A stretch of DNA of 37,871 nucleotides from positions 1-37,871 of the forward strand of contig DYQZ01000007.1 of the NCBI GenBank assembly GCA_020719005.1, given 5' to 3'. The position numbers were made by a program, and so were the translations under genes. The notes under the pieces were generated by a model. That model did not search any database and was not told the origin of the DNA. It saw only the letters and a list, made by a program, of their open reading frames with translations. Positions 18,511 to 32,476 of the stretch are shown here, one piece after another (the first letter of the stretch is position 1; every line of letters starts with the position of its first letter). The DNA comes from Candidatus Omnitrophus sp. (GTDB lineage: Bacteria > Omnitrophota > Gorgyraeia > Zapsychrales > Fredricksoniimonadaceae).

Positions 18511-19554
18511 TTATAACGGAATTTGCTGGGAAAGGCAATGGCATGTGCCGAGGCCGACGATAATGTCAGTTGCATCAATGGGAACAATGCGACGGCCTTT
18601 GAAAAGACCTTTAAGAATGCGGATCGCTTCTTTATCCTGGGCACAGTTGAATACCGGCAACAGAACGATCCCGTTGGCAATATAAAAGTTCGCATAACTC
18701 GCCGGAAGACGTTCATCTTTGCGATAATAACGGGGTTCAGGCATCGGGAGCGTCACAATACGGAACGGTTTCCCATCCAGGTTGCGAAAACTCTTCAAGC
18801 GCTCAATATTGTCGCGGCATATTGCGTGGTTCTCATCCGCTTTGTTCTTTTCCTTAACCGTTACGATCGTATTTTTATCTGTAAAGCGCGCGATATCATC
18901 AATGTGTCCGTCGGTGTCATCACCCGCGATGCCATCTTTGAGCCACAGGATCTTTTTCACACCAAGATTTGACTTGAGCGCCGTCTCGATCTCTTCTTTG
19001 TTCAAATGCGGATTACGGTTCTTGTTGAGCAGGCACAATTCTGTGGTCAAGAGCACGCCGGCACCATTGACATCAATGGACCCGCCCTCCATGACCAGAG
19101 GATATGAAAAACACGGAAGCCCGAGGAATGAGGACATCTTCTTAGCGATCCTGTTATCCTTGGCCGAGGGATATTTTCCGCCCCATGCATTAAAGATCCA
19201 ATCAGTGGCAACCCGCGCGCCTGTCTTTTGATGCTTAAGGACAATACAACCATGATCCCGGCACCAGGCGTCATTCGTCGGAAAACGATGCAGGAACACA
19301 TTTTTTGTGACCTTGCGCTTCTTGAGCTTAAGTTTAAGCGCACGTTCCATCGCATCGTCATTAACGTTAATGTGAACCTCTTCAACCTTGGCCAGATGCA
19401 TCACCATATCTGCAAAAGCATCCTGAGCAGATTTAAGGGCGGTGAAGAAACTTTTTGGATTATGAGGATACGAAAGCCATGTGCCCTGATGGGGTTCCCA
19501 CTCGGCGGGCATCCTGTAACCTTGACGTATCAGATCGTGAAATTTATTTTTCAT
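18511..19554 (-). CDS. aguA: Agmatine deiminase
   Basis: MPAEWEPHQGTWLSYPHN, NDAWCRDHGCIVLKH, VMEGGSIDVNGAGVLLTTELCLLNKNRNPHL, GDDTDGHIDDIARF; C-terminal GTCHCLSQQIP. Confidence 0.95.
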   Translation of the reverse strand: MKNKFHDLIRQGYRMPAEWEPHQGTWLSYPHNPKSFFTALKSAQDAFADMVMHLAKVEEVHINVNDDAMERALKLKLKKRKVTKNVFLHRFPTNDAWCRDHGCIVLKHQKTGARVATDWIFNAWGGKYPSAKDNRIAKKMSSFLGLPCFSYPLVMEGGSIDVNGAGVLLTTELCLLNKNRNPHLNKEEIETALKSNLGVKKILWLKDGIAGDDTDGHIDDIARFTDKNTIVTVKEKNKADENHAICRDNIERLKSFRNLDGKPFRIVTLPMPEPRYYRKDERLPASYANFYIANGIVLLPVFNCAQDKEAIRILKGLFKGRRIVPIDATDIIVGLGTCHCLSQQIPL

Positions 19555-20440
19555 TGTCGAACCGTTTATATAAAGCGCTGTAACTATCAATACGTCTATC
19601 ACGCAAAAAAGGCCACTGCACACGTTTGGAAGCGATCACATCAAGATCAACAGAGACAATGAGAGCCTCTTCCTTATTTACAGAAGCACGCTTCACGACC
19701 GTTCCATAAGGATCAGCCACAAAGCTCTGCCCCCAGAACTCAATACCTTCCTTGCCCTTTTCCGGGTTCGGCTCATATCCCACACGGTTCGTCGCCGCCA
19801 CAAAACAGCCGTTAGCAATAGCATGTGCGCGCTGGATCGTCTCCCAGGAATCGTGCTGACGCACACCGTATTCAGCCTTGTCCGCCGGAAGCCAGCCGAT
19901 CGCAGTCGGATAGAAAATGATCTGTGCGCCCTTAAGCGCAGTCAAACGTGCCGCTTCGGGATACCACTGGTCCCAGCAAATAAGAACGCCGATATCCGCA
20001 TATTTTGTCTTAAAGACCTGATATCCCAGATCACCAGGCGCAAAATAAAACTTTTCATAAAATTGAGGGTCATCAGGGATATGCATCTTGCGGTATTTGC
20101 CAAGATACTTTCCGTCGGCATCAAGTACCGCGGTCGTGTTGTAATAAACACCCTCGGCCTGTTTCTCAAAAAGAGAGGCCACAATGACAACTTTATATTT
20201 CTTGGCGAGAGAAGACAATGCCTTGACGACTGCGGCTTTCTCACTCACCGGTTCAGCAAGTTTAAAGAGCTCGTAGGATTCGTGCTGACAGAAATAACGC
20301 GACTTGAACAGTTCCTGGGTCGCGATGATCTTTGCCCCTTTTTTAGCAGCAGAAGCGATCATCCCAAGCACTTTATCAAAATTCTTACCGACGCTATCAC
20401 TACAGGAATGCTGGATCAGTCCAATATTGACCTTGTTCAC
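19544..20440 (-). CDS. aguB: N-carbamoylputrescine amidase
   Basis: VNIGLIQHSCSDSVGKNFDKVLGMI, ATQELFKSRYFCQ, RKMHIPDDPQFYEKFYFAPGDLGYQVF, GVLICWDQWYPEAARLTALKGAQIIFYPTAIGW. Confidence 0.96.
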   Translation of the reverse strand: MNKVNIGLIQHSCSDSVGKNFDKVLGMIASAAKKGAKIIATQELFKSRYFCQHESYELFKLAEPVSEKAAVVKALSSLAKKYKVVIVASLFEKQAEGVYYNTTAVLDADGKYLGKYRKMHIPDDPQFYEKFYFAPGDLGYQVFKTKYADIGVLICWDQWYPEAARLTALKGAQIIFYPTAIGWLPADKAEYGVRQHDSWETIQRAHAIANGCFVAATNRVGYEPNPEKGKEGIEFWGQSFVADPYGTVVKRASVNKEEALIVSVDLDVIASKRVQWPFLRDRRIDSYSALYKRFDNEK

Positions 20441-20511: not shown

Positions 20512-23274
20512 CTATCCATTGGGAAACAACACCCGCTCAACCTCCGGGATTGACGAGGCCGGCTTCAACGGTTTGAGATCAAAGATAACGGGAGAAAAGC
20601 CAAGGGTGTTCTGATAAGCATTCAATTGTTCCTTGCTCCATGTATCAAAATGGACTTGTCCGCCCGCGGCATCTACAAACATATCCATCGTGCCGGCACC
20701 GAGGTCGATGCCGCCGGCCGGAGCCGCTATCACATCCGCATCTAAAGAAGCCGCCGGATGCTTTTCTATTGATCTGCGGAAAATAACAGAAGAACTGCTT
20801 TCCGGAAGAATAAAATCCCCCTCAGCTCTTAATATCTCATTAAATCCATCACCAACGAAGGCGGTGAGAAAAATGATCCCGCCCGGCTTTAAGACCCTCA
20901 ACAATTCCTGAGCCATCTCATCAGGAAGATCTTCAGAGATCGTCAGGTTCTGACCAAAAATAACACCGATACTGTTGTCGGGAAGCGGCAAGGTGTCTTC
21001 AAAAGATCTCTGATATATTTTGTATTCAACTTTTCCCGGTTCATTTTTGCTCTGATAATATTCTTGCGCCACCTTGATGCGCCCCGCCTGAATTTCCATG
21101 CCATGGATCACCGATGCCCCTGTAACAGCTTTGACCTTTTCCAGCTCCTGATAAGAATTCCCGAATCCAAGGACCAATGCCTCATTAATATCAACACCAT
21201 CATGCACCATTTTCTTAACCTCGCCTTTCAGAAGAGGGCCATAGTGTGTAGCAAACAAATCCCGGCTTGTCCGTGTACCACCACCGAAATCATCATAAAA
21301 TCTCGGGTCAACGGCCTTGATCTTTTCTGAAGCATCGTCTGTGTTGCCTTCAGCAGCAAACCCCTTGCCCGCCACAACATGAATAACCTCCGGAAGCGCG
21401 CCCGAACGAAAACTTTGTCGAGACTCCTCCATCACCTTGATATTCAGTGACGTCCAAATGCCTTCACGCTTGATCCCGTCTTTCCCGGAAAGTAAAGAAT
21501 AAAAAGTCTTCACCAACCTGGGATACTCGACATTGAACACAAAGAAACCATCCGATGAGAAAAACCTATTCAAAGCCTTAAAATGAAGAGTCACCTCTCT
21601 TCGACGCCACTGTTCATGAAGAATAAAGTGAAAACCGTTCTTACTATAGCCAGCCTGAATAAGGGATCCTTCAGGTAATACCTTTTCCAGCACCTCTCCC
21701 GTCGTCTGGAAAGGTGCCACAACCATCGAGATCGCTGGCTCCATCTCCAGGTCATTGATCATGCGCGGATATATCGTTTCAGTCGTTGCGATCACGCGAA
21801 CATTGTTGATCCCGCGCTTGCGCATTTCCACCAGCAAGCCTTTAGCCGCACGCAGATCCCCTGCTCCCCAATCAAGCACATAAAAAGGCTTATCACCAAA
21901 AATAGCGGCATCATGCGCGATACGATCGATCAGTGAACCATTCAAGATAGTCGTAAAAACATGATCGATCTCCTGGATCGTGGTCTGGAAAATAGGCCAA
22001 CCATCTGCAAAGCGTACAAATGACCCGATATTCCCGCAAAGAACCCGTTTTGTCCGCCCCTGTTTTCTCGACTGAAGAATATCATGATAAGAAACCGCTG
22101 GATCCAGAAAGAGACGGCGCCTAACATCTGCCGGAATAACTCCTAAAGCGTTACGTTCCGGCAAAAGCCCCATTCCAGCCAGAAGCAAATGACGTCCAAT
22201 AAGGGAGCCCAGCCCTACAACCTTTGAGATCTTCATTGACGCATCCACGAGGACGATCCCGCCGGAAAAATATTTACGCGGAATTAGCGCTCCGGAGGCA
22301 GAGTCGTGCTCTTCCTTGATCAAATTGAACGCGCCCTGTTTGAACGACGCCACATACTGCTGATAGATCTCCTCCACCGCCGCCGGGTCTCCTGTATCAA
22401 CCCCAGGCACTTTCTTCTGATCCACATAGACCGATGCCAAAAGCGTGTCCTTGACCTTCTTTTTATACCAACTCGCAAGAATGAACGAATGATAGATCTG
22501 ACGCAGGCGTGCAAAATGCGCGCCTTCATTGACTTCTTTTTCCAACGCTGGAAGAACGACCTCACGCATTACAGACACAGCAAGGTCTGAACCTTGTTCT
22601 ACCAATGGTGCGGTTGATGCGATGGACTGTCCGCGGTCTTTTGCCATCGCCAGATAATCCACCTCGGTCATGACCTTCAAATGAGAACTGACCACAACAG
22701 CGGTCGCGTCTTTAGCATCAGGTCTTTCATAAACCGTAACCTCTGCCGGAACGATCCACACACGGTTGCGTGCATCAAAAGGTATCTCGGTCGTTCCCAA
22801 ACGCTCCTGAGCCGTGCGGTATACCTCATCCCAGAATTTCTTTCCGATCGCCTCATCCGGATAAATAGCAGAAGAGGCGATCTGCTTAAGCAAATAATCC
22901 TGTGCCAAAAGGTCTCTGCCCATTTCAGTTTGACCAAAAAGTTCGGGCACGATACGGTCATGTTCATCGGGGGACAAATTAACCCAAAGATCTTTTTCAG
23001 GAATAGTAAGCGCCGCCATGAAATATTTCGCGAGGCGCGTGATCTCATCCTTCAAGGCGGGCGCATCATCAGCTCCGTCACCTTGATCAACAATAAGATC
23101 AAAACGGAACGGCTCTTTACTGTAGGCCTTGATCCCGACCAAGACCGGCGGCTGATACGAAGACGAAAAACTCACCAATGCCCCAGGTTCAGGCAGAACA
23201 ATGCCCGATGCCCCGACAGGTGTTCCTGTGAGGATCAAGAATAAAATCAATAACAAGTGCAGTATCTTTTTCAA
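20512..23274 (-). CDS. Large exported protein with conserved N-terminal region and two methyltransferase-like regions
   Basis: Signal peptide MKKILHLLLILFLILTGTPVGA; FYVLDWGAGDLRAAKGLLVEM (degenerate MTase motif I) and ALVLGFGNSYQELEKV...IHGMEIQAGRIKVAQEYY...SFEDTLPLPDNSIGVIFGQ...ELLRVLKPGGIIFLTAF (Methyltransf_11-like). Confidence 0.75.
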   Translation of the reverse strand: MKKILHLLLILFLILTGTPVGASGIVLPEPGALVSFSSSYQPPVLVGIKAYSKEPFRFDLIVDQGDGADDAPALKDEITRLAKYFMAALTIPEKDLWVNLSPDEHDRIVPELFGQTEMGRDLLAQDYLLKQIASSAIYPDEAIGKKFWDEVYRTAQERLGTTEIPFDARNRVWIVPAEVTVYERPDAKDATAVVVSSHLKVMTEVDYLAMAKDRGQSIASTAPLVEQGSDLAVSVMREVVLPALEKEVNEGAHFARLRQIYHSFILASWYKKKVKDTLLASVYVDQKKVPGVDTGDPAAVEEIYQQYVASFKQGAFNLIKEEHDSASGALIPRKYFSGGIVLVDASMKISKVVGLGSLIGRHLLLAGMGLLPERNALGVIPADVRRRLFLDPAVSYHDILQSRKQGRTKRVLCGNIGSFVRFADGWPIFQTTIQEIDHVFTTILNGSLIDRIAHDAAIFGDKPFYVLDWGAGDLRAAKGLLVEMRKRGINNVRVIATTETIYPRMINDLEMEPAISMVVAPFQTTGEVLEKVLPEGSLIQAGYSKNGFHFILHEQWRRREVTLHFKALNRFFSSDGFFVFNVEYPRLVKTFYSLLSGKDGIKREGIWTSLNIKVMEESRQSFRSGALPEVIHVVAGKGFAAEGNTDDASEKIKAVDPRFYDDFGGGTRTSRDLFATHYGPLLKGEVKKMVHDGVDINEALVLGFGNSYQELEKVKAVTGASVIHGMEIQAGRIKVAQEYYQSKNEPGKVEYKIYQRSFEDTLPLPDNSIGVIFGQNLTISEDLPDEMAQELLRVLKPGGIIFLTAFVGDGFNEILRAEGDFILPESSSSVIFRRSIEKHPAASLDADVIAAPAGGIDLGAGTMDMFVDAAGGQVHFDTWSKEQLNAYQNTLGFSPVIFDLKPLKPASSIPEVERVLFPNG

Positions 23275-23460
23275 CGCCTATCCCCTTATTATGACGCTCA
23301 TTCCACCTTTAATAAGTATCTACTTATAAAAGAAGAAAAACAAGGGGGCTGCCAGCCCGCTGGAAGACATTCTTCTCTGATGCATCTCATTGCAGGGGTG
23401 AGTGATACGGATGTATTAAAAGATTGGGCTATTCATTTATATTTTTTTATTGACCGGCAA

Positions 23461-30808: not shown

Positions 30809-32476
30809 TTATTTCTCGCCCCAACTGCCGGGGACGATGGACAGGCGGCGGTTCACGCTTTCGGTGGTCTCGCCGGCGTAAAGACGGGCGATCTCAGTAG
30901 CGGATAGAGTACGACTGTAAAGACGAACATCGTCGATCTTGCCTGTAAAATAATCACTGCCTCCATCATATGAAGAACGACCTATTTGAAAAGGAGCCTC
31001 ACTATCATAATCAGATGCTGAGTATCCTGTGTTATAAACCATTTCCCCATTAACATAAAATAAAATATCCGAACCGCTATAAACAAGCGCCACATGGGTC
31101 CATGTATTTAAAGCCGAAGGCGTTGTTGTTTCTTCCCAGCCAGCACCAGTGTAAATAAACCAATAATACGGACTTCCTACTCGTGCACTTAAAGCTCTAT
31201 CAAAACCACCGTCATCATTTCCAAAGACTGTGCCACCATAAGCTGTCTTGTAAACCCACGCCGCCAACGTTATCTCTGGATAATCATCAATATCAATAGG
31301 CGCTGTGGCATTTTTTGTTCCATCCAAATTCAATGCATAATCCCCAACCTTGCCACTCGTCCAGGCAAGAGCGCTTGACACAGTCCCGGTATTCCCATTC
31401 CCGCTCGAATCCGCAACTGTCGTTCCTGAGCCTTCATCAAACTCCCAGTGCCCGACCAGATCGCCGTCCATGTAAAGCTGGGCTAGCTCTTCAGCTGACA
31501 AAGCGCGTGAATAAACGCGTACATCATCGATATCTCCATTAAAAAACTCATCCATCGAATAATGTTTACCGATAACCAGATCACTCACCGCATCTGTGAA
31601 ATCACAATCCGCCTTCTCACCGATCAAATTCTGATCCACATAAAATCTCATCGCACCAGCACGATTCACGCTCATGGCATAAAAATGCCATTGCCCCAGC
31701 ACAGGACTATATCTTCCGGCACCGCCCCCCCAACACTGCCCTGTCATAGCGGCGATATCTTTACCCGTAGGCCCCCAATTGTATTCATATATGCCATATC
31801 CAGTATAATCCTCGGACTTCCCTACTAAATATGGAGGAGACGTCGGCACATTGACCTTAGTCCACAAAGCAACCGTTAGTGTCGCCATATTTAAACTCGC
31901 CGCATCAGGAACGCTGACATGACTACTACCATTAAAACGCCCTGCCTGCCCCTTTTTTCCAGCAACATAAGTTGCTGTCCCAGACCATGTCCCGTTGTTC
32001 CCATATCCGCTGGAATCCGTTACTGCCATGCCAATGCCGCCATTAAATCCCCATTGACCAACAGGCCCTGTCTTCACACGCTGATATACCGTTCGCTCCA
32101 CTCCATTGACCGTCGCGCTTGATGTCAGATATATCGATGCGTCCACGCTATAATCACGAACCCATATCGTATAGATCCCACCGTCTAAAGTCTCAGCCTG
32201 AGGATCAGTTGGATTGGCACCTGCCACAGTCGGATACGCACTTGTGCGCCAGGAAGCATCTGTTGATCCATCAGGCGCTGTATGAAGCAGATACCATTTG
32301 GCTTTCTCTAATCCCGCCTCGGCTAGATAAAAAGCTTTCAGATTATCCACCTGTCCTGCCGTGACCTTGCCCGCGCTGTTCACGGAGAATAGAAAAGCAG
32401 TGGCCAGACCGCTTAACGCGATCATGAATACCAAGACCATCAACATCAAACTTCCCCGTCGCGTCAACAACATCAA
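30809..32476 (-). CDS. PilX-like pilin N-terminus fused to two LamG/ConA-like domains
   Basis: [59 protein letters not shown] (PilX_N-like); two LamG repeats ([13 protein letters not shown]...[18 protein letters not shown] and [13 protein letters not shown]...[18 protein letters not shown]). Confidence 0.85.

Follow-up and report, generated by a model that had tools for sequence, protein, structure and literature searches.

Constant ends around unrelated cargo: an apparently undescribed family of probably exported proteins in Omnitrophota

Introduction

Polymorphic toxins (CDI, Rhs and MafB; PMC3482391) join a constant trafficking part to highly variable effector domains and are present in many copies. 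Sorting tags, such as the C-terminal domain of the type IX secretion system (T9SS), PEP-CTERM and GlyGly-CTERM, are short conserved C-termini carried by many otherwise unrelated exported proteins. In the phylum Omnitrophota, giant open reading frames (ORFs) of more than 20 kb, large and of unclear function, have been considered in relation to symbiosis or predation (Seymour et al., 2023; PMC10066038). The gene described here shares features with all three. It lies at 20512-23274, on the reverse strand, of a 37,871-nucleotide stretch of Candidatus Omnitrophus sp. (contig DYQZ01000007.1, assembly GCA_020719005.1; the window) and codes for a 920-aa protein, hereafter the query, which a sequence-only reading had described as exported and as bearing tandem methyltransferase-like regions.

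The query is almost certainly one of hundreds of proteins in which constant ends enclose unrelated cargo. The question is therefore what such a carrier does, and not just why a methyltransferase is exported. Neither end has a covering entry in Pfam, NCBIfam, PHROGs, PADLOC or PDB, and a literature search, from which subscription journals are largely absent, returned no published description; this large family is apparently undescribed so far.

Results

The constant head and tail

About ten other large ORFs of the same genome contain counterparts of residues 2-345 of the query, at 45-61% identity, their remainders being unrelated. Alignment of the paralogs delimited an N-terminal module of about 340 residues (the head), with more than 50 invariant columns and YFSGG at its end, and a tail that opens with GGID. 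In the query, the head proper occupies residues 23-340 (22255-23208), with YFSGG at residues 335-339 (22258-22272), and the tail, GGIDL ... PVIFDLKPL, residues 854-920 (20515-20715); these and all other features of the query are on the reverse strand. The tail, of about 65 aa, was found in 105 of 136 complete head-bearing ORFs, ending 0-27 aa ahead of the stop codon, and GGID was seen downstream of the head 101 times against 2.3 expected. The earlier suggestion that the tail resembles those of other large Omnitrophota proteins was thus borne out, the GGID...PVIFDLKPL sequence recurring at the extreme C-terminus of most relatives. The same reading had noted a long unrecognised N-terminal region; residues 1-700 and the tail indeed have no match in Pfam or NCBIfam, but the N-terminal region is a conserved module and not a unique sequence.

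An AlphaFold model of the head (115 sequences) had a mean predicted local distance difference test score (pLDDT) of 91.8 and a predicted TM-score of 0.91. Foldseek found no similar structure in PDB or in the viral library BFVD, and the head sequence had no PDB match. A known fold was rejected on these grounds, and the modelled fold appears new as measured against those two libraries only. A known sorting tag (PEP-CTERM, GlyGly-CTERM or T9SS) was likewise rejected for the tail, since 41 GGID tails compared with NCBIfam gave a best E-value of 0.041, to an unrelated family.

Behind the head lies a linker (residues 341-411; 22042-22254) with DASM, of D-[AS]-x-M type, at residue 344; the motif D-[APS]-[AS]-[MQ], which this sequence fits, is concentrated family-wide in the first 50 residues past the head. 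An SSP linker motif, about twofold enriched across the family, was not used. The layout persists in distant relatives from other families, where SSPA-type linkers and GGID motifs are again seen. L187, L188 and L189, distant relatives that belong to another family of the class, resemble polyproteins: SSPA linkers and repeated GGIDL stand between several domains of a single chain, one of them methyltransferase-like and another looking, by eye, like a response-regulator receiver.

Distribution

Head matches at E<=1e-10 were present in 90 of 285 genomes across the phylum. Within the order of the query, 33 of 35 sampled genomes carried the head (E<1e-140), and a single genome can have as many as 77 candidate copies; in other families of the class the matches were fewer and mostly weaker. 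Tail matches, summed by hand, numbered 857 in 32 genomes of the query's family. In one relative (G001), about 55 near-complete copies take up about 180 kb (open frames added by hand) of 2.2 Mb, or about 8% of the genome. A pattern scan of genomes returned at least 502 relatives, and nearly all of the best 80 of these carry the label Omnitrophota; three contigs labelled Candidatus Elulimicrobium and one other bacterial record do not. The three contigs (L068, L071 and L089) hold family members at about 51% identity, and NCBI places their genome in the Patescibacteria group; these copies reflect either a wrong label or a wider range of the family.

Cargo and reuse of the ends

When 101 cargoes were compared by BLAST at 1e-5, most were unrelated to each other. 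Among 1,969 pairs of cargoes from the same genome, there was no pair in which the match covered more than half of the shorter cargo. Many cargoes matched no Pfam family. Tallied as the 25 commonest families per batch, the Pfam matches listed were chiefly to enzymes of cytosolic type: radical S-adenosylmethionine (SAM) enzymes, B12-binding domains, HATPase, ABC1 and protein kinases, PPDK, glutamate and alanine dehydrogenases, a cystathionine-type pyridoxal phosphate enzyme, serine acetyltransferase, acetate kinase, phosphotransacetylase, a glucanotransferase, SNF2, cytidine deaminase, one Fic domain and many methyltransferases. Glycosidases and peptidases were also present, among them GH116, alpha-amylase, glycogen debranching enzyme, M48 peptidases and proteins with HExxH motifs.

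Two comparisons illustrate how the ends are reused. In L216 and L217, from one genome, a stretch of 1,076 bp that opens slightly ahead of the start codon and runs through the head to SGG is 88.4% identical in DNA; unrelated cargoes of 906 and 802 aa follow, after which identity returns (83% over 154 bp) from the GGID codons. L241 and L219, from two species of one genus, show the same pattern, with ends 80% and 81% identical. The genomic neighbourhoods of the similar-head, different-cargo pairs checked differ. Replacement of cargo at a single locus was rejected by this synteny test, and because such pairs are not syntenic we claim no more than that near-identical ends are used again with different cargo. 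New cargo thus turns up repeatedly between the constant ends. Two pairs checked that keep their cargo are syntenic, with 60-65% identity in the cargo and 69-71% in the head; conservation of the cargo nearly equal to that of the head is consistent with function.

No family member was matched in 50,697 phage records, and a phage-genome family was rejected on that result, though three IMG/VR contigs (L278, L279 and L280) hold one family gene each. The open frames there measure 1229 and 1599 aa, the GGID tail is intact in L279 and L280, and a neighbouring gene in L278 resembles those for phage tail-fibre proteins. These sequences suggest a vehicle for the family, which may travel on Omnitrophota phages or prophages.

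The methyltransferase-like cargo of the query

The C-terminal of the two regions in the query had been called Methyltransf_11-like, and a significant Pfam match to that family agrees (residues 717-802, E=2.6e-8, 34.8 bits against a curated cut-off of 21.2). This class I methyltransferase domain (domain 2, residues 697-822; 20809-21186) has motif I in the form VLGFGNS (residue 701), with two of the three glycines of GxGxG, an acidic residue within GMEIQ (residues 725-729), and LKPGG. The variant motif I is also present in homologous cargo; homologs occur in L100 (three in tandem), L086 and L037.

Domain 1 (residues 412-586; 21517-22041), with VLDWGAGDLR at residue 466, had been seen as a degenerate Rossmann-type motif. 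Pfam gave no match over residues ~412-586, but the domain recurs, with its DWGAG motif, in cargo of three other genomes (L193, L146 and L034). An AlphaFold model of the query cargo built from four sequences was of low confidence (pLDDT 48.9 overall) and serves as weak support only, with a beta-alpha-beta core in domain 1 at about 70-94 and, by Foldseek, weak matches of which many were SAM methyltransferases. Profile comparison of domain 1 with domain 2 returned a 24% probability, too weak to prove homology. Both methyltransferase-like stretches are genuine domains. Defence models gave no whole-protein match, mad2 matching weakly and partially in the methyltransferase region (7.2e-5).

That the query is simply an isolated exported methyltransferase, oddly localised and with nothing special around it, is barely credible. 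The Methyltransf_11 match fits such a view, but the remaining parts of the chain form a chassis that is found across the family and encloses unrelated cargo elsewhere, and a search of 31 genomes of the query's family gave no counterpart of its cargo as a whole at E<=1e-10. The family survey, with its constant ends and its unrelated cargo in other copies, led to the rejection of this candidate.

Export and cysteine content

The N-terminus of the query, MKKILHLLLILFLILTGTPVGA followed by SG, reads by eye as a Sec signal peptide (residues 1-22; 23209-23274; cleavage between VGA and SG). A comparable hydrophobic core was found in 130 of 132 complete relatives, and an AxA-type site in 112 of 132, both counted with an in-house heuristic; the clear signal peptide of the sequence-only reading stands. 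Further transmembrane segments were seen in 17 of the 132.

Cysteine is strongly depleted. The query contains one (C413) in 920 aa (Poisson P(<=1)=1.5e-4). In the cargo of the family, 271 cysteines were counted in 185,227 aa (0.146%), and 100 of 219 cargoes had none. Presumed cytosolic ORFs at the same loci contain 1.23-1.26% and exported proteins outside the family 0.93%, or 0.47% when one cysteine-rich, probably multihaem, protein is left aside, both control classes having been assigned by a simple hydropathy rule.

Catalytic cysteines are retained against this background. Nine radical-SAM cargoes, picked by the CxxxCxxC motif itself, keep that motif complete and have 17 other cysteines in 8,650 aa; those of L049 (503 aa) and L062 (924 aa) have none besides it. 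For comparison, the 30 radical-SAM ORFs found by Pfam in G002 average 10.2 cysteines. Among the first 101 cargoes, Pfam recognised six as radical-SAM and the motif seven; L049, without a Pfam match, makes the difference. A deaminase cargo in L223 has exactly two cysteines, the zinc ligands of PCSSC, and other signatures are also kept (Fic HPFADGNGR, protein kinase HRDIKPEN, HATPase DxGxG). Since cysteine is depleted yet its catalytic instances survive, we argue for the export of functional enzymes: the cargo is very probably exported, and in general it is likely to be catalytically competent. The earlier suggestion of a non-catalytic role is not favoured for the family, in which radical-SAM, deaminase, Fic, kinase and HATPase signatures persist; the query's own methyltransferase domains, given the degenerate motif I, may or may not be catalytic.

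A mis-called signal had also been considered; the proteins would then be cytoplasmic, or anchored at the N-terminus with the cargo inside the cell. Cargo families typical of the cytosol speak for it, as do some distant relatives with an N-terminal anchor and no obvious AxA site. It is nonetheless very improbable: signal-like N-termini and AxA-like sites are found family-wide, additional transmembrane segments are few, cargo cysteine is about one-tenth of that in the presumed cytosolic controls, and radical-SAM cargo has been stripped of cysteines outside the cluster motif. A cytoplasmic protein with a false signal is argued against on these grounds.

Another proposal is that the cargo is a hypervariable display or decoy, in which enzyme folds serve anew as variable surface proteins (for adhesion, or for phage or prey recognition), their catalysis incidental or lost. 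The extreme turnover of cargo between constant ends would suit it, as would the many cargoes outside Pfam, the copies on viral contigs and motif I of the query. We consider it quite improbable, because catalytic cysteines are kept against a strong overall loss, the Fic, kinase and HATPase signatures are retained, and cargo in syntenic copies is conserved almost to the degree of the head.

Homologs in Streptomyces

With the family profile, the head core was also found in Streptomyces plasmid proteins at E-values of 1e-30 to 1e-50, including WP_121549542.1, WP_266737726.1, WP_331747086.1 and WP_251091514.1, all annotated as hypothetical. These share with the Omnitrophota family the head core, an N-terminal export signal and GG[IV]DF motifs that flank the module on either side. 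Their order is export signal, N-terminal domain, GG[IV]DF, module, GGVD and an LAxTG-like or transmembrane end; unlike in Omnitrophota, the cargo precedes the module and a C-terminal anchor follows it. The N-terminal domains look by eye deaminase-like (HSE...FCTRC) or like PD-(D/E)xK nucleases. Because Pfam assigned no family to these domains, the toxin-like appearance is a lead and not a test. On the plasmids (L281-L284) the proteins are apparently surface-anchored, and no adjacent immunity gene is present in the annotated neighbourhoods.

The Omnitrophota carriers may act in the producer's own periplasm or at its surface, the ends anchoring or assembling them there and the cargo digesting or modifying prey-derived material or external polymers. 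Signal peptides and cysteine depletion fit this account, as do the cargoes suited to digestion (GH116, alpha-amylase, glycogen debranching enzyme, M48 peptidase, HExxH motifs) and the LAxTG-like or transmembrane C-termini in Streptomyces. We regard it as rather unlikely, since the cofactors of methyltransferases, HATPases, kinases, dehydrogenases and radical-SAM enzymes are not normally periplasmic.

The gene and its neighbours

The query gene is an open ORF with a TTG start, preceded at six bases by a ribosome-binding site, AAGGGGA (23281-23287). Directly downstream, at 18511-20440 on the reverse strand, are a carbon-nitrogen hydrolase (amidohydrolase-like) gene and an agmatine deiminase-like gene, assigned by sequence; the pair probably serves polyamine synthesis and gives no sign of a functional tie to the query. 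The gene at 30809-32476, also on the reverse strand, codes for a possible adhesin, exported or pilus-like, in which Pfam finds PilX_N and two Laminin_G_3 domains; laminin-G domains have been reported in giant Omnitrophota ORFs.

Discussion

We tentatively propose, at close to an even chance, that the family consists of exported carriers with exchangeable enzyme cargo whose site of action lies beyond the cytoplasm of the producer, an attached cell being the most plausible one. Sec would take the chain across the inner membrane, and the two constant ends would form an address or chassis for trafficking or display. The cargo would be an exchangeable enzyme held between them, in the query the tandem methyltransferase-like pair, and would work after leaving the producer's cytoplasm, most plausibly upon delivery into an attached prey or host cell. 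Many cargoes need SAM, ATP, NAD or low-potential electrons, with which the periplasm is not normally provided; the cytoplasm of a partner would therefore be the most economical site of action, and delivery of cargo into another cell is a possibility to which we give somewhat less than an even chance. Predatory or parasitic lifestyles have been proposed across Omnitrophota (PMC10066038), and Ca. Velamenicoccus archaeovorus, another omnitrophote, has been seen in micrographs in open cytoplasmic contact with its prey, which when dead contain accumulated intron RNA of the predator (PMC13153191).

Several points weigh against this proposal. The evidence on predation comes from a different omnitrophote, which may or may not carry the family. 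Neither a secretion machinery nor a receptor or recipient was identified. Other exported proteins of these genomes are also poor in cysteine, so that the depletion backs export in general and not delivery into a cell. Acetate kinase, glutamate dehydrogenase and glycogen debranching enzyme are not obvious effectors. Gene conversion of the ends could also yield near-identical ends around different cargo. Finally, the methyltransferase activity of the query itself is uncertain because its motif I is degenerate (GFGNS).

A more specific version, unlikely as a whole, would be a hitherto unknown delivery chassis, taking up as much as about 8% of the genome of an epibiotic or predatory bacterium, in which Sec-exported carriers bring catalytically intact intracellular enzymes, radical-SAM ones among them, into the cytoplasm of another cell as exchangeable cargo, possibly releasing it at YFSGG and GGID, the same module being used beside toxin-like domains in Streptomyces. 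It is a speculation that the invariant GG pairs at the two cargo borders (YFSGG and GGID) are processing sites.

If the proposed carrier function is correct, a large family with a new fold would combine conserved modules for export with an open-ended range of enzymes unexpected outside cells. It would offer a direct and testable candidate for the means by which uncultured Omnitrophota act on the cells to which they attach, and possibly a natural chassis for exporting complex enzymes, iron-sulfur ones included. The loss of all cysteines but the catalytic ones would be an unusually clean genomic signature of work outside the producer's cytoplasm.

Among known systems, polymorphic toxins are alike in having near-identical constant parts around unrelated cargo, and in Streptomyces the head stands beside domains that look, by eye, deaminase- or nuclease-like. 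They differ in position, the variable toxin being at the C-terminal tip, whereas the Omnitrophota cargo is internal, with the tail 0-27 aa from the stop. They have an adjacent immunity gene, whereas the Omnitrophota tandem copies checked abut without room for one (L074, 6992-10036 and 10040-14317; also L073, in the subset of copies examined), and the downstream neighbours of the query resemble an amidohydrolase and agmatine deiminase gene pair rather than an immunity gene. Their cargo is a toxin, whereas that of Omnitrophota consists mostly of metabolic or signalling enzymes, with one Fic domain; and the head is unrelated to the trafficking domains known from Pfam or NCBIfam. Though the family resembles a polymorphic effector system in its working, it is not classed as one because its cargo is not C-terminal, no immunity gene accompanies the copies checked and most of its enzymes are not toxins. 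Unlike the sorting tags, the aligned GGID tails have no terminal transmembrane helix with a basic cluster and are paired with a large conserved head. The words 'secreted' and 'effector' are absent from the main text on the giant Omnitrophota ORFs, which are described there as poorly conserved and as having few domains (PMC10066038); the carriers, by contrast, measure 0.4-5.8 k aa and have strictly conserved ends.
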